From NCBI GenBank assembly GCA_014379595.1, contig JACMLM010000041.1, forward strand, positions 1 to 48,491: a stretch of DNA of 48,491 nt, given 5' to 3'. Position numbers and translations under genes: made by a program. The notes under the pieces were generated by a model. It had not been told where the DNA came from and did no database searches. It worked only from the letters and a program-made list of their open reading frames with translations. Shown here one piece after another: positions 6,726-18,013 of the stretch. Each line of letters opens with the position of its first letter. Position 1 is the stretch's first letter. The stretch comes from Anaerolineales bacterium (GTDB lineage: Bacteria > Chloroflexota > Anaerolineae > Anaerolineales > Villigracilaceae).

Positions 6726-7334
6726 TTACCTTTTAACTTTCAACAATCGATCCAATTGATCGATTGTTTCTTGTGGATCTTTAAAGAGTATGCCTTTCAT
6801 ACCAACTTTTTCACAAGCTTCAATATTGACTTTTACATCATCTACAAAGACCGCCTCATTCGCGCGGACCTTGGCCTGTTCCAGCGCGATTTCAAAGATT
6901 TTTGTATCAGGCTTCATCGTCCCTACCTCTGCCGATATGATCACAGTATCGAACTCATCTATGATCTTTTCGTTAACTATGAATTCGCGCAAACCACTCC
7001 AGGCATTGGATATTAATCCTGTATGAACCTTGCCACGCAAGGAACGAAGATATTCAAATAAATTACGGTCCAACACATCGCCGCCAAAAAATGCATCTTT
7101 AAAAGAATTAACTTCAGATACCGGATGTTTCAACCGCTCCAAGGTTTCCACCCAATGCGATTCTTCTGTGACTTCACCCAAGGTAGCACGCCGAGCTGAT
7201 TCGCTTGCAAAAACAATCTTATCGATATCATCGTATTCCAGTTTGAAACGCTCCGCCAAATGTTGGCGCGGAGCCTGGAATTCAGTTCGCATGAGTACAC
7301 CGCCAAAATCAAAAAATACTGCACGAATGGTCAT
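6726..7334 (-). CDS. HAD-family hydrolase, subfamily IA
   Basis: The 202-residue protein has all four HAD motifs: FFDFGGVL with nucleophile Asp9, ISNAW (motif II), KPDTKIF with the Lys of motif III, and FVDDVKVNIEACEKVGMKG (motif IV). The DFGGV form of motif I, with Gly at the second Asp position, is like the epoxide-hydrolase N-terminal phosphatase and haloacid-dehalogenase-like branch. It probably dephosphorylates a small metabolite in the cytoplasm. Substrate unknown. Confidence 0.88.
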   Translation of the reverse strand: MTIRAVFFDFGGVLMRTEFQAPRQHLAERFKLEYDDIDKIVFASESARRATLGEVTEESHWVETLERLKHPVSEVNSFKDAFFGGDVLDRNLFEYLRSLRGKVHTGLISNAWSGLREFIVNEKIIDEFDTVIISAEVGTMKPDTKIFEIALEQAKVRANEAVFVDDVKVNIEACEKVGMKGILFKDPQETIDQLDRLLKVKR

Positions 7335-7356
7335 TATCGCTTTATCCCTTTAACCC

Positions 7357-7392
7357 ACAAAGCCTTAAAGACTCGCGTCCTCTCGGCTTTGT
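7357..7392. repeat. Short inverted repeat between HAD and zinc-ribbon genes
   Basis: ACAAAGCC (7357-7364) and GGCTTTGT (7385-7392) form an 8-bp stem with a 20-nt loop. There is no T tract on the minus strand, so it is not a convincing terminator. Confidence 0.35.
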
Positions 7393-7416
7393 AATGAAAA
7401 AATTAAAATAGAGTCT

Positions 7417-7821
7417 TTACTTCTTTTTGCCTTTTGCTGGGGCATTCTTCGCAGGCTTGCTTGCTGTAGTTTTCTTTGCCTTTGTAGTTGAGGTCGCAGC
7501 GGTTTTCTTAGGACCAGCGGCTTTAGCAGCAGCCTTCTTTATGACTGCTTCCTTCATCGTTTTAGAGATAGGCTCTGTCTTAAGAGAAGTAGAGGCTGGC
7601 GGTGAATCAACTGGTGCAGATGCTTGATGTTTAGCAGCATCCTGCCAATTGGGGAAGAATAATTCCATCCGCTGACGGGATATTGAATTGGCGCGGCGGC
7701 AACGCGGACAATGAGCATCATAATGGTTTTGGCCCTTCTCATTCATTGAGATAATAGCACCCAGCATTTCAGTGCGAGCGAGGGTAAAAGGGGTCTGACA
7801 ATAGATACAACGCAGGTTCAT
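7417..7821 (-). CDS. Small zinc-ribbon protein with Lys/Ala-rich tail
   Basis: The first 50 residues hold two Cys pairs (CIYC at 5-8 and CPRC near 38-41), forming a likely zinc ribbon. The segment after residue 65 is low-complexity, rich in Ala, Lys, Pro and Thr, and ends in a very basic tail (KGKKK) like those of histone-H1-like or nucleoid proteins. A nucleic-acid-binding role is inferred. AAGGAGAG precedes the ATG at good spacing. The family is not recognised beyond the zinc-ribbon type. Confidence 0.75.
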   Translation of the reverse strand: MNLRCIYCQTPFTLARTEMLGAIISMNEKGQNHYDAHCPRCRRANSISRQRMELFFPNWQDAAKHQASAPVDSPPASTSLKTEPISKTMKEAVIKKAAAKAAGPKKTAATSTTKAKKTTASKPAKNAPAKGKKK

Positions 7822-8893: not shown

Positions 8894-9886
8894 TCATTCT
8901 TCCAAACTTCTACCAGCGCGTAATTCCTTTTCATAAGTAAGGAACTCACTCGCTACAACCATGCCTGCTCGTTGATACAGACGTGTCGCGCCGGTAGGGC
9001 TGGATGCGTCCACTCCCAAGCCGATTGTCTTTGTACCGCGTTTGTAGAATTCTCCGAATGAATGTTGTAGCAAGCTAAGACCAAGTCCATTTTTGCGCCA
9101 TGGGCGGCGAACGCCTAAAGTGCCGATCCAGCCAACACCCATACGAAATCGATTCTGTGAAAATCCAGCTATTTGATTACCATCCCATGCAATCATCCAC
9201 AGGGTTGGGTCAAAATCTTCACGACCAAACTTCCCATGCTCCCAATCAGCAAATGGAATGTCATGACTTCCCCAATGATCGCGGAAGGATTCATTCTGCG
9301 CCTCCCAAACAAGATGAGCATGTTCATCGCGGTTGAACGGACGTAATTCAATTCCATCCGGCAATATCACTGAAGAAGGTGCCTCCTCGAGTTTGATTTC
9401 CATGCGCCAGTGATATCGTTTAGGAGAATATCCCTCGGCCTTATGTAAGTCGTTGCTGGCCTCATCGCGATTATCTATGGTGCTTCTTAGAAATACACGC
9501 AGATCGGGATCAGCCAACTTCACTGCCTCGCGCGCGCGTACTTCAACCGCACGCAATAACGTTGTGCCGATACCATGGCCCGTCAAATCAGGATGCACAT
9601 ATCCGTCTGTGTTCAGGCTGTAATGTTCATGCGTGTTAGTAAATTCTTCATAACCAACCACACGTCCATCTTTGGTTTCCACGAGAAATGCATCTGTTTC
9701 CAGTTTGAAGCCTTCGTTCTGCCATTCAAGTTTTAACTCTTCGGGCGTGACAGCAACAGTCGTGTCGCCATCATCTTCACAGACATCGTAGATGAGTTGT
9801 GCAACAGCGTTAAGGTCTGCCCATTGGGCAGCACGCAGTTTCAGGCTTGAGTCAAGAAGCGTTTCATTTAGTTGATGTTGTGTCAT
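8894..9886 (-). CDS. Tandem-domain GNAT acetyltransferase (gene 4 of the GNAT operon)
   Basis: The 330-residue product has two GNAT domains with motif A sequences LTGHGIGTTLL and RRPWRKNGLGLSLLQHSF. The ATG at 9886 overlaps the upstream stop by 4 nt (ATGA) and follows GAGAGGA, so it is preferred over the in-frame ATG at 9904. It is paralogous to the downstream gene, probably by local duplication. Acetyl-CoA binding is supported in both domains; the substrate is not evident. MshD-like thiol chemistry is one possibility, antibiotic or metabolite acetylation another. Confidence 0.87.
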   Translation of the reverse strand: MTQHQLNETLLDSSLKLRAAQWADLNAVAQLIYDVCEDDGDTTVAVTPEELKLEWQNEGFKLETDAFLVETKDGRVVGYEEFTNTHEHYSLNTDGYVHPDLTGHGIGTTLLRAVEVRAREAVKLADPDLRVFLRSTIDNRDEASNDLHKAEGYSPKRYHWRMEIKLEEAPSSVILPDGIELRPFNRDEHAHLVWEAQNESFRDHWGSHDIPFADWEHGKFGREDFDPTLWMIAWDGNQIAGFSQNRFRMGVGWIGTLGVRRPWRKNGLGLSLLQHSFGEFYKRGTKTIGLGVDASSPTGATRLYQRAGMVVASEFLTYEKELRAGRSLEE

Positions 9887-10443
9887 TGTTTCCTCTCCAT
9901 CCAATCGTCACGCAGGATGCCCATGTAAAGCATATCCCAGCGTTTTCCATCACGTAACAATGCCTTTCGCATACGTCCTTCATGTTGAAAGCCAACTTTT
10001 TCATAAGAACGTATGGCGCGCGGGTTATATTCAAAAACATTCAATGTGACACGGCGCAAGTTAAGTTCAGTAAAGGCATAACCTAAAGCAACCTTCATCG
10101 CATCGGTGCCATAACCTTTACCCCAATCTTCGCGATTGCCAATACCGAGACCTACAAATGCATCACGCGGCCCCCAGTTGTTAACGACATAAAGGCCGAT
10201 ATCACCCAGCAGACGATTATCATCCAGTGCGCGGATTGTAAAAGGATGTTCCATGGGAGATACTTCTTTATTTTCTTTTTCAAAGAAATCTGAAATGGCT
10301 TTTGATGATCGCAAAGCAACCATTCTCGCATCGAGATAACGCGTCAATTCAGAATCTTGATTCCATTTGGCATATGCCTTGCCAAGCTCTTCATGGTCAA
10401 CAGCAGAGAGTCTCACTAATTCGCCTTTGAGAATATCTTTCAT
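9883..10443 (-). CDS. RimJ/RimL-type GNAT acetyltransferase (gene 3 of the GNAT operon)
   Basis: From the ATG at 10443 the product has 186 residues. GIGNREDWGKGYGTDAM is the acetyl-CoA-binding motif A and ELNLRRVTLNVFEYNPRAI is the typical RimJ/RimL beta4-alpha4 region. The start at 10443 overlaps the upstream stop (ATGA) and has GGAG before it; the longer frame to 10491 runs into the upstream gene and is rejected. It is about the same length as the adjacent upstream paralogue and shares KGYGTDAMK and RRI/V-L-Y-NPRA-SY-K-GFQ. Members acetylate protein N-termini, polyamines or antibiotics; the target here is unknown. Confidence 0.88.
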   Translation of the reverse strand: MKDILKGELVRLSAVDHEELGKAYAKWNQDSELTRYLDARMVALRSSKAISDFFEKENKEVSPMEHPFTIRALDDNRLLGDIGLYVVNNWGPRDAFVGLGIGNREDWGKGYGTDAMKVALGYAFTELNLRRVTLNVFEYNPRAIRSYEKVGFQHEGRMRKALLRDGKRWDMLYMGILRDDWMERKQ

Positions 10444-11000
10444 TTTGACTCCTGCTGTGCCAGCCATTCTTCGCGCAAGATGCCCATCCACAAACTATCA
10501 TAACGAACTCCATCACGTAACCCTTCGCCACGCATGGTGCCTTCCAGTTGAAAGCCAGCTTTTTGATAAGATTTCAATGCACGTGGATTATAAGAATGAA
10601 GGCCAAGCGAAATTCGGCGCAGATTCAATTCAATGAATCCATATTGCGCCACCAGTTTCATGGCGTCTGTGCCATAACCCTTACTCCAATAATTACGATC
10701 ACCCACCATGATGCCAACCCATGCTTCGCTGTGGGTCCACGAATTGATCCACAGCGAAACAGAGCCGATCAATTTATCTTCATCAAGTGTATGAATTGCA
10801 AATCGAAATGCCTGCGAATGTTTTTCAGCATCTTTTTCGATGAATTCCTTGATCTTTTTTTCAGACCATAACTGTGCGGGGTCACTGTCTGCAAGGCGGT
10901 GGGCCTCTGTATCTCGATCCCAATTTGCAAAGGCTTTTGCAAGCACATCAGCAGATTGGGACGCGAGACGGACGAGGGATCCGCGATAAATATCTTTCAT
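10440..11000 (-). CDS. RimJ/RimL-type GNAT acetyltransferase (gene 2 of the GNAT operon)
   Basis: This 186-residue paralogue of the downstream gene begins MKDIYRGSLVRLA, parallel to MKDILKGELVRLS. Motif A is GDRNYWSKGYGTDAMK and the C-terminal block is NPRALKSYQKAGFQLEG. GAGGG precedes the ATG. It ends in a 4-nt overlap with gene 3. It is cytoplasmic. Gene order and overlap show that the five GNAT genes are co-transcribed; no other pathway gene sits among them, so the acceptor substrate cannot be inferred from context. Confidence 0.88.
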   Translation of the reverse strand: MKDIYRGSLVRLASQSADVLAKAFANWDRDTEAHRLADSDPAQLWSEKKIKEFIEKDAEKHSQAFRFAIHTLDEDKLIGSVSLWINSWTHSEAWVGIMVGDRNYWSKGYGTDAMKLVAQYGFIELNLRRISLGLHSYNPRALKSYQKAGFQLEGTMRGEGLRDGVRYDSLWMGILREEWLAQQESK

Positions 11001-11004
11001 CGCT

Positions 11005-11589
11005 TCACCCTCGACTGTTTACTTGCTCGCGCCATTCAGCATTCAACAAGCCGAAAGAGACGAGGTCCCAAATTTCACCGTCACGGTTCAAAGCTTTCCG
11101 TCTGCGAATCTCTTCCATAAAACCGAACTTCTGAAAGAGAGCAAGCGCACCTTCGTTATAAGCTGGCACAACCGCAGTGACACGATAGAGATTCAATTCG
11201 CCAAAGGCATAGCGCAGCAACATGCTCAATGCCTGCGAACCATATCCTTTGCGGCGATCCTCTACCGCACCAATACCGATGCGGAGAAAGCCATTGCCAT
11301 TCGTCCAGTCGATCCACTCTACGACAGCTTTGCCAATCAAGCGTTCATCTTCGCGGGCACGGATGGTGAAGTAGAACAGGTTCTTATCTTCTTCCATCTC
11401 CTTCTCAATCGTTTCATACTGCTTCTTAACCATCGCAGGCGAAAGCGGACGAACAGGTTTCAATTCCATTAGGCGCATGAATTCGGCGTCATGCGTCCAT
11501 TTGGATTCGATATCGGGATGTGTTTCGTGGTCAATCGGCCCAAAACGGACATCCTGTGCGTCGAATAATTGAGTTTGTATATCTAACAT
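11005..11589 (-). CDS. RimJ/RimL-type GNAT acetyltransferase (gene 1 of the GNAT operon)
   Basis: The first gene of the operon encodes 194 residues from the ATG at 11589, which has a strong GGAGGAAACC before it; the longer frame to 11607 is rejected. Motif A is GIGAVEDRRKGYGSQAL, followed by ELNLYRVTAVVPAYNEGALALFQKFG. It is more diverged from genes 2 and 3 than they are from each other. It lies 4 nt before gene 2 and is preceded by a long structured leader carrying a small ORF and two terminator-like hairpins, which suggests conditional expression of the operon. Confidence 0.88.
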   Translation of the reverse strand: MLDIQTQLFDAQDVRFGPIDHETHPDIESKWTHDAEFMRLMELKPVRPLSPAMVKKQYETIEKEMEEDKNLFYFTIRAREDERLIGKAVVEWIDWTNGNGFLRIGIGAVEDRRKGYGSQALSMLLRYAFGELNLYRVTAVVPAYNEGALALFQKFGFMEEIRRRKALNRDGEIWDLVSFGLLNAEWREQVNSRG

Positions 11590-11661
11590 GGTTTCCTCCA
11601 ATACCATCCTTTTCTCTGCTTATACACTTCACTAAAAAGAGAAAAGGGGGAAATAAAAAAA

Positions 11662-11688
11662 CAGCCACAGGTCATTAACCCATGGCTG
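11662..11688 (-). terminator. Second terminator-like hairpin in the GNAT leader
   Basis: On the minus strand CAGCCATGGG pairs imperfectly with CCTGTGGCTG (6 bp, two mismatches, 2 bp), and seven T residues follow. It resembles the hairpin 17 nt upstream of it (11705-11736) and stands between the leader ORF and the first GNAT gene. Confidence 0.6.
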
Positions 11689-11704
11689 CCATGCTTAAAT
11701 AAAA

Positions 11705-11736
11705 ACGGCCACGGGTCGCAGTTGCGCCGTGGCCGT
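11705..11736 (-). terminator. First terminator hairpin in the GNAT leader (attenuator candidate)
   Basis: ACGGCCACGG and CCGTGGCCGT form a perfect 10-bp GC-rich stem with a 12-nt loop. On the minus strand it is followed by TTTTTATTT. It begins 21 nt after the stop codon of the 27-codon leader ORF, as in classical attenuators. Confidence 0.75.
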
Positions 11737-11757
11737 AAGACAACAAATTAAAAGAGT

Positions 11758-11841
11758 CTAATGGGCAGCAGGCGCACTACGAGAATCAAAATCGGCAAAG
11801 CCGATGAAGAAAGTGAATTTGGGTAACTTGTTCATTATCAT
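11758..11841 (-). CDS. Phe-rich leader peptide of the GNAT operon (27 aa)
   Basis: An ORF of 27 codons begins ATG ATA ATG AAC AAG and is preceded by AAGGAGG at about 10 nt; the second ATG (11835) would give 25 residues. The peptide begins MIMNKLPKFTFFIGFADF, so five of eleven residues in KFTFFIGFADF are Phe, and it ends SAPAAH. It lies between a sigma70-like promoter and two intrinsic terminators, all ahead of five GNAT genes. The codons of IGFAD contain a small hairpin (11791-11805), and TGCGCC in the Ser-Ala-Pro codons is complementary to GGCGCA in the first terminator. The layout is that of a translated attenuator; the sensed signal is unknown. It is too short for database-based naming. 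Confidence 0.6.
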   Translation of the reverse strand: MIMNKLPKFTFFIGFADFDSRSAPAAH

Positions 11842-11891
11842 TAAGCGTGCGCCTCCTTTCTTAGATTTGCTTTTGTTTCAAGCGAGCGTGA

Positions 11892-11920
11892 GTTTATCAC
11901 GCAAAGTAAAAGTTAGTCAA
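11892..11920 (-). promoter_or_regulatory. Promoter of the GNAT leader and operon
   Basis: TTGACT (11920-11915) is followed after 16-17 nt by GATAAA or ATAAAC (11898-11892). Transcription would start near 11885, about 45 nt before the leader ORF and nearly 300 nt before the first GNAT gene. Confidence 0.6.
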
Positions 11921-12123: not shown

Positions 12124-12528
12124 ATGATTATGATTGCCTGGAAAACTGAAACAAACTACAACGATATGCAAACTGTTTTGATCATTTCACGCGACTCAGA
12201 AATGGTGACAGTATGGGAGAATTTATTTCAGCAAAAGAATTGTCATGTGATCAGTGAAGCATTACCTGACAATGCCTTGCAAACTTCCAACCTGCTTTCT
12301 CCTACATTGATCATCCTTAACCTGAACCTGCCTCAGCTTGAACAGATCGGTCTTTGCAAGGAACTCCGCTCCACTACCAAAGGCACACTCCTACTACTTA
12401 CTCCCAAAGAAGATGAGCAGGAAATCTTTGATTATCATTATGCAGGTGTGGATGAACATCTACCAACATCTATTAGCCCGATGGCTCTGTTGATCAAATC
12501 CATGGCATGGCTGGCGCGGCATCAATAA
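12124..12528 (+). CDS. Atypical response-regulator receiver domain lacking the phospho-Asp
   Basis: This is a stand-alone REC-like domain of 134 residues, with an alternative start at Met15 (12166). The beta3 block reads PTLIILNLNLP, so Asn66 occupies the usual phospho-acceptor Asp position. The acidic pocket is partly kept (ISRDSE), as are the switch Thr93 and Lys95 (LLLTPKEDE). It probably does not receive phosphate in the usual way and may act as a constitutive or ligand-controlled adaptor (inference). No kinase or output domain is adjacent. The GAT-to-AAT change should be excluded as a sequencing error. Confidence 0.75.
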   Translation: MIMIAWKTETNYNDMQTVLIISRDSEMVTVWENLFQQKNCHVISEALPDNALQTSNLLSPTLIILNLNLPQLEQIGLCKELRSTTKGTLLLLTPKEDEQEIFDYHYAGVDEHLPTSISPMALLIKSMAWLARHQ

Positions 12529-17901: not shown

Positions 17902-17922
17902 TGCCGAAAAAAAACTTCGGCA
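17902..17922 (-). terminator. Riboswitch expression-platform terminator
   Basis: On the minus strand TGCCGAA and TTCGGCA form a 7-bp stem with a T-rich loop, followed by CTTTTTCTTTT. Its first arm overlaps the 3' end of the GEMM aptamer, so aptamer folding and termination are linked. Confidence 0.75.
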
Positions 17923-17992
17923 GTCTGGCAGTCTGCTACGCAACAGACCCATGACTTTGCGTCCTCACCTCACGATGAGTTTGCCTTTTCGG
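17914..17992 (-). promoter_or_regulatory. Cyclic-di-GMP-I (GEMM-I) riboswitch aptamer
   Basis: The minus strand shows GGCAAACTCATC, a GTGA tetraloop, then GGACGCAAAGTCATGGG and AGACTGCCAGACTGCC. These match in order the GEMM-I consensus: GGCAAAC, a GNRA-type loop, GGACGCAAAGC, the tetraloop-receptor side and the 3' closing strand. It senses the second messenger c-di-GMP. It precedes an intrinsic terminator and the secreted subtilase gene. Overlap of the 3' end with the terminator arm suggests that ligand binding prevents termination (ON switch), but the direction is inferred. Confidence 0.85.
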
Positions 17993-18013
17993 GTGAAACG
18001 ACTTGCAATGTTT

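Follow-up and report, generated by a model that had tools for sequence, protein, structure and literature searches.

A 48,491-nucleotide (nt) stretch (positions 1-48,491) of contig JACMLM010000041.1 from an Anaerolineales bacterium (phylum Chloroflexota; assembly GCA_014379595.1), called the window below, carries on its minus strand five GNAT acetyltransferase genes spanning 11589-7852, the first of which starts at 11589, and ahead of them a leader region that we studied as a candidate translated attenuator. The parts listed in a preliminary description of this DNA are all present on the minus strand, namely a sigma70-like promoter, a 27-codon open reading frame (ORF) with a strong Shine-Dalgarno (SD) sequence, a perfectly paired first intrinsic terminator (T1), a second terminator (T2) and then the GNAT operon (Table 1). 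AAAGGAGG begins at 11859 on the minus strand, preceding the leader ORF, and the T1 stem begins 21 nt past the stop codon of this ORF. Equally real in the sequence are the small hairpin formed by the codons of IGFAD and the complementarity of TGCGCC, within the ORF, to GGCGCA in T1. The first reading had overlooked that TGCGCC is also complementary to the leader ORF's own SD region (GGAGGCGCAC), and that the pairing with T1 extends to 11 base pairs (bp) with one bulge, reaching through an Arg codon. We propose to assign the roles of a four-segment switch to the SD region (segment 1), the codons for R-S-A-P (segment 2) and the two arms of T1 (segments 3 and 4). Promoter-like sites in the region (four found, 3.4 expected) do not place the promoter alone above chance, and terminator-like sites numbered four against 1.2 expected; across the leaders compared, a promoter built like that of the window precedes 125 of 164 (drawn from two sets that overlap, so that some leaders recur), compared with a mean of 0.6 in mononucleotide shuffles.

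Table 1. Features of the leader and of the GNAT operon in the window.
Feature	Position	Strand	Remarks
Sigma70-like promoter, TTGACT-N18-TAAACT	11891..11920	-	TG ahead of -10; spacer 18 nt (17 nt if -10 is ATAAAC)
Segment 1, SD region of leader ORF, AAAGGAGGCGCACG	11846..11859	-	proposed protector strand; partner segment 2
Leader ORF, 27 codons, MIMNKLPKFTFFIGFADFDSRSAPAAH	11758..11841	-	frame kept across relatives
Small hairpin within IGFAD codons	11791..11805	-	local structure
Segment 2, CGTAGTGCGCCT, codons R S A P	11770..11781	-	partner segment 1 or segment 3
T1, first intrinsic terminator (segments 3 and 4)	11705..11736	-	perfect 10-bp stem, then T tract
Segment 3, GGCGCAACTGCG, 5' arm and loop of T1	11717..11728	-	proposed antiterminator partner of segment 2
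T2, second intrinsic terminator	11661..11689	-	5' arm complementary to T1 3' arm
GNAT1, first gene of operon	11005..11589	-	PF13302/PF00583
GNAT2	10440..11000	-	profile match
GNAT3	9883..10443	-	profile match
GNAT4, two GNAT stretches	8894..9886	-	MshD-like, under NCBIfam cut-off
GNAT5, GNAT domain protein, 365 residues	7852..8949	-	MshD-like, under cut-off; start codon uncertain

The leader is not confined to this locus. Its DNA matched 48 of 151 genomes at E <= 0.001, the window's own genome among them. A pattern combining the SD region with AGTGCGCC, and requiring neither an ATG nor a reading frame, was scanned against genome contigs from 84,980 species (one genome per species) and found 82 stretches; 74 of the 80 examined bore Chloroflexota names, mostly Anaerolineae. 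Five with non-Chloroflexota titles (L105, L148, L155, L169 and L174) were dropped as chance finds, and one under an Armatimonadota species name (L133) was retained among the 75 pattern loci used below. When a covariance model built from 78 leaders was run on 396 genomes sampled from the class, 157 of them, in 107 of 222 genera, gave a match; of 400 genomes sampled from the phylum 37 did so, 34 of them within the class and three outside it. These three hold four matches, which precede ABC exporters (L282, L285), a RIO1 kinase (L284) and no recognised gene (L283). The window itself matches the model at E = 3.1e-31, and since it belongs to the training set, the matches elsewhere are the better evidence. 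Left out of our alignment (A1) were three loci in which T1 was absent or badly located (L039, L145 and L154) and one then held doubtful, which was later shown to precede a RIO1 gene (L128). No Rfam family covered the leader at gathering score in the window and five other loci, where the best sub-threshold match reached 22.2 of 43 bits and sub-threshold matches to small RNAs were judged to be chance. A description of the element was not found in the open-licence literature, searched by titles and beginnings of abstracts among the matches listed, and one may exist elsewhere; nor was one found in the passages checked of a 2010 list of 104 RNAs (PMC2864571). The leader apparently belongs to a large family of RNA switches in Chloroflexota, undescribed so far.

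The window's own genome holds six further copies, three of them strong and three weak, the latter backed by context. Four precede ABC exporters (L215, L216 and L217 at E < 1e-10, L218 at 2.6e-4), one a RIO1 kinase (L219, E 0.0014) and one an ABC-F-like gene truncated by the contig end (L220, E 0.04, accepted on context). The gene behind L216 is likewise truncated by a contig end, and its start resembles that of the gene behind L217; the two leaders, at the end of contig C66 and the start of contig C67, are near-identical and apparently share the same exporter start, which may reflect either a recent duplication or an assembly edge. Six more weak matches in related genomes (L286-L291) stand outside the gene tally given below: they precede a GNAT gene (L286, by Pfam), an ABC exporter (L287, by eye), RIO1 kinases (L289 by Pfam, L288 by eye), an ABC-F-like protein with two ABC domains (L290, by Pfam) and a gene without identification (L291).

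The ORF proved to be conserved in homologous leaders, as expected from the earlier proposal of a translated element. At 74 of the 75 pattern loci (all except L159) the first ATG lies in the reading frame of the motif, and no stop codon interrupts this frame up to the motif's end; similarly, 84 of 85 model matches have an ORF that runs uninterrupted through segment 2, the other being L219, in which the model misplaced segment 2. The ORF was recognisable at most loci read, the form in the genus being M(F/I/V)MNKF...DSRSAPxxR, and T1 begins 16-35 nt past its stop codon (78 leaders). An antiterminator and a terminator that exclude each other are both present, and the terminator lies between the ORF and the genes.

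The pairings were examined by comparing each leader's own strands with strands swapped between leaders. Segment 2 (CGN AGT GCG CC) has two complementary partners, the SD region on the one hand and the T1 5' arm with its loop on the other. For the antiterminator 2:3, own strands paired at -15.8 versus -14.3 kcal/mol for swapped ones (n = 80, including L039 and L154 with a wrong T1; none of 5,000 permutations reached the own value), and at -15.9 versus -13.9 kcal/mol in the model-found set (n = 86; 0 of 10,000), for which the model had been built without the 2:3 pairing and which retained one minus-strand match that is spurious (L266), as well as L219 with its segment 2 misplaced. This advantage persisted after removal of relatives (n = 75 and n = 46; 0 of 10,000 each). 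The protector 1:2 also favoured own strands (-15.6 versus -15.1 kcal/mol, n = 80; 0 of 5,000) and passed the swap tests in the model-found sets, with the caveat that 1:2 is part of the model. Moreover, the Arg codon ends in a base that suits its partner in the T1 loop in 40 of 53 leaders, compared with 23.3 expected (0 of 10,000), 27 of the 80 leaders having been set aside for want of the loop motif. Compensatory changes are frequent in T1, where 8 of 9 stem pairs show changes on both sides (78 leaders), and covariation was seen at 3 of the 9 protector pairs. When the 78 leaders were folded, the protector (P1) and T1 were predicted in 0.96 and 0.99 of them with no ribosome, T1 in 1.00 with a ribosome at the stop codon, and the antiterminator in 0.99 with a ribosome stalled early, at a point when the T1 3' arm has yet to be transcribed. 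The IGFAD hairpin fared less well: its region shows more structure than shuffled sequence does (mean z -1.2, n = 77), but covariation was not significant (27 leaders, p 0.66), and as a functional part it is weakly supported. A third hairpin at the stop codon, which is weak overall (mean z -0.6) and is not claimed here, appears in several clades, for instance as GTTGAC/GTCAAC (L141) and GCTGAC/GTCAGC (L178).

The genes behind the leader fall into few classes. From the 85 model matches that were fetched (part of all matches) and the 75 pattern loci, we obtained 156 distinct leaders, after exclusion of L185-L195, which repeat leaders already read; six have no gene before the contig end. Among the 150 with a gene in reach, 145 precede drug-defence or ribosome classes: GNAT proteins (64), ABC exporters (54), RIO1 kinases (7), DrrAB-type transporters (7; DrrA 5, DrrB 2), HAD proteins (5), RsgA (5), ABC-F proteins (2) and an MFS protein (1). 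By comparison, 5 of 222 genes upstream of the leader matched the same seeds (75 pattern loci only). Classes were named by BLAST against 21 seed proteins, all of which were scanned by Pfam or NCBIfam, and the second ORF was taken where the first was unmatched and shorter than 130 residues; the GNAT, ABC-exporter and MFS classes were in the model's training set, and RIO1, RsgA, HAD, DrrAB and ABC-F were not. The ABC exporters are ABC_membrane plus ABC_tran proteins, two in succession at many loci (Pfam, NCBIfam), and the best PDB matches of one of them were P-glycoprotein-like multidrug exporters, with YheH, which we take to be BmrD, further down. The gene behind L252 is a ribosomal-protection ABC-F (463 bits versus an NCBIfam cut-off of 380) and that behind L264 is an RsgA above its cut-off (211 versus 100 bits). 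A multidrug transporter downstream, as in leaders of the BmrB type, is thus found within the family (54 of 150 leaders precede ABC exporters), the window's own genes being GNATs. The earlier remark that acetyltransferases are unexpected behind such a leader falls, because the same leader also precedes ABC exporters, ABC-F and MFS genes. RIO1-domain kinases stand behind the element at L219, L212, L284 and L289, and at L264 a gene of the same BLAST cluster as these kinases adjoins RsgA.

Conservation, the way in which the strands of each leader suit one another, and the genes found under the same leader strongly support the translated attenuator with a bmrCD-type layout and the mutually exclusive structures that had been proposed. 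We consider it probable, at roughly 85%, that the leader is a ribosome-mediated transcription attenuator working by the logic of trp and BmrB and sensing ribosome stalling in general. Its parts, reading frame, pairings, gene classes and distribution come from the comparison of sequences; from these we infer a transcription start, termination with read-through, and stalling as the trigger. Without translation, 1:2 and T1 would both form and the genes would be off. During smooth translation, the ribosome would finish 2-9 codons beyond segment 2 and cover it, so that T1 would again form. A ribosome stalled or slowed between the start codon and segment 2 would instead mask segment 1 and free segment 2, which could then pair with segment 3 while segment 4 is still to be transcribed; T1 would fail and the polymerase would enter the resistance genes. 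In leaders of GNAT operons, the freed 3' arm of T1 may moreover capture the 5' arm of T2, so that T2 would fail too. Such a switch would require translation of the ORF, the amino-acid sequence would hardly matter, and what is measured would be ribosome transit. The signal is probably a ribosome-targeting antibiotic or translation stress in general, the gene classes making ribosome-targeting antibiotics the most likely.

Could the peptide itself be the sensor? An arrest peptide, of the kind that includes RAPP, SecM and the erm leaders, in which RSAP would stall the ribosome through the nascent chain, alone or with a drug, and so set read-through, is in our judgement unlikely. Arrest motifs of the RAP type are known, about 69 of the 77 leaders of the first set have Arg ahead of SAP with its third codon base free (68 as counted, with one second SAP in L133 recounted by eye), and 81 of 85 model matches share the RSAP frame, which speaks for a role of the peptide. 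However, in 21 ORFs of 27 codons (20 from the genus and L064 from another genus) S is always AGT and A always GCG, so that SAP is constant at the nucleotide level (AGT GCG CC), which is what a strand engaged in pairing should show. Several leaders have Cys, Trp, Gly, Ser, Leu or Thr in place of Arg, five leaders (L085, L159, L249, L262 and L279) carry the RNA motif in a frame other than that of RSAP, and a ribosome halted at RSAP would cover segment 2, favouring T1. The SAPAAH stretch, which the preliminary description had named as a possible stall site, is not conserved (SAPVRR, SAPVHR, SAPVD and others).

The other sensor suggested there, the Phe-rich stretch, would imply an attenuator like those of phe leaders, in which a shortage of charged tRNA-Phe halts the ribosome at Phe codons. 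The six Phe of the window's 27-codon ORF, and a 1.8-fold enrichment of Phe relative to nearby proteins, would fit this reading, which we nevertheless hold to be very improbable: of 76 leader peptides, 86% contain Phe and 7% contain FF ahead of RSAP, no amino acid is common to all 76, Ser and Ile occur in more peptides than Phe, and no biosynthesis or tRNA gene appears among the downstream classes. In the 21 ORFs of equal length, diversity over codons 2-18 is alike at the three codon positions (0.40, 0.37 and 0.36), with codons 3-5 reading M-N-K in most. A conserved run of regulatory codons, as an amino-acid attenuator would have, was looked for in the leader ORFs and not found. On balance, the comparison suggests that the leader ORF gauges ribosome transit, and neither Phe nor a peptide motif.

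A riboswitch binding a metabolite or drug, with the ORF incidental, would account for a conserved, structured leader with a terminator across many operons, but has hardly any chance given that the frame is kept at 74 of 75 loci, that sequence and length vary between the pairing segments with no aptamer core seen, and that no Rfam family covers the leader at gathering score. Equally improbable is a leader that yields a small RNA or peptide acting in trans, as peTrpL reportedly does, with the tandem terminators ending it and the genes under their own promoter, since in 145 of 150 cases the gene right behind the leader belongs to one of a few recurring classes, and the fit between segment 2 and T1 would be purposeless.

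Several points weigh against the ribosome-mediated attenuator. With the 5' part blocked, the full-length equilibrium fold prefers T1 over the antiterminator in 0.87 of the 78 leaders, so that the decision must be kinetic. Since segment 2 is almost invariant, the six core pairs of 2:3 show zero double changes and do not outperform shuffled columns; support for 2:3 stems from the flanking Arg codon and the wider set rather than from the core pairs. In some members (L232, L270, L277, L281 and others) the protector strands pair weakly, and shared ancestry is not fully removed by the swap tests. Five of the 150 leaders (L201, L205, L207, L213 and L262) precede none of the classes by BLAST, although Pfam identifies the gene behind L201 and the second gene behind L213 as GNATs. 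Finally, the parts are known from sequence, and the switching and the inducer are predictions.

A second terminator distinguishes the leaders by gene class. T2 lies within 75 nt past T1 in 50 of 57 non-ABC leaders versus 0 of 21 ABC-exporter leaders, counts that hinge on the score threshold (L121, of the ABC class, shows a T2-like hairpin by eye). In the 50 leaders, the T1 3' arm fits its own T2 5' arm better than in all 10,000 swaps. This fit would be accounted for by a cascade, with the 3' arm of T1 opening T2 once T1 itself is lost, and also by a T2 that arose by duplication of T1 and retained the likeness for other reasons. In genome G022, a GNAT operon leader (L024, excluded from the leader counts) has lost the ORF body and T1 by deletion between the SD region and T2; this operon should, as a prediction, be always on.

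We lean towards a broader interpretation, in which the operons of a translation-stress regulon in Chloroflexota would all be controlled by this one family of RNA attenuators acting in cis, a counterpart of WhiB7 that does without a protein. Every operon (exporters, DrrAB, GNATs, ABC-F, MFS, RsgA, RIO1) would read ribosome transit for itself, the peptide sequence being irrelevant, and the GNAT operons would do so with a two-terminator cascade. If true, this would reveal a genome-wide drug-response circuit in a largely uncultured phylum, the shared control would hint at the function of dozens of exporters, GNATs and RIO1 kinases, and RsgA, a ribosome-assembly GTPase, as well as bacterial RIO1 kinases would be tied to translation stress. 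The leader ORF would be retained for being read, not for its product, and sensing of transit versus sequence-specific stalling is cleanly testable.

The surroundings of the leader were also inspected. A single-domain response regulator (12124-12528, plus strand) is divergent from the leader and shares its intergenic region. Behind the GNAT operon (6726-7821, minus strand) lie a 134-residue protein without a Pfam match and a HAD phosphatase; pairs like that of the window (MNLRCIYCQTPF..., HAD) stand behind GNAT operons at several loci, and elsewhere HAD directly follows the leader. An antiphage role was considered for GNAT1, for which PADLOC gave no match. Farther along the window, a cyclic di-GMP (c-di-GMP) riboswitch of the c-di-GMP-I-GGC family (17915-17994, minus strand; 68.4 bits, cut-off 59) lies about 115 nt upstream of a gene for a 970-residue subtilase with inhibitor I9, PA and fn3 domains, and control of this protease by c-di-GMP at the riboswitch is possible.

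The proposed switch has counterparts among known attenuators. The trp-type attenuators of enterobacteria follow a 1:2 / 2:3 / 3:4 logic with a protector hairpin, which the present leader would share; unlike them, it has no run of regulatory codons, its segment 1 is the SD region instead of control codons, and its targets are non-biosynthetic. In translational attenuators of the erm type, translation of a leader peptide senses ribosome-targeting drugs, as we propose here, although here intrinsic terminators sit between leader and gene. The WhiB7 regulon of Actinobacteria is a translation-stress regulon that brings pumps, a GNAT and ribosome-protection genes under one transcription factor; the genes found here are of similar kinds, but each operon has its own RNA element in cis. 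Lincomycin, erythromycin and chloramphenicol induce the BmrB leader of Bacillus subtilis bmrCD, with slow translation, rather than one residue, as the proposed signal; this leader combines a short translated ORF, a terminator, an antiterminator and an anti-antiterminator ahead of a multidrug ABC exporter pair (PMC4191407). The Chloroflexota leader would be BmrB-like in its working, a likeness of layout and logic; it differs in that the BmrB terminator lies within the ORF and a single locus is described, compared with a terminator 16-35 nt past the stop codon and an element ahead of many operon types here, and in that the protector is here the ORF's own SD region (PMC4191407). The rli80 leader of Listeria hflXr, a gene that responds to lincomycin and erythromycin through it, likewise joins a small ORF to a terminator, an antiterminator and an anti-antiterminator in the control of a ribosome-rescue resistance factor; its 14-residue peptide carries an RLR macrolide motif, whereas no such conserved motif was seen in the present leaders (PMC6310831). 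BmrB and rli80 are experimental precedents for leaders of this kind (PMC4191407, PMC6310831).
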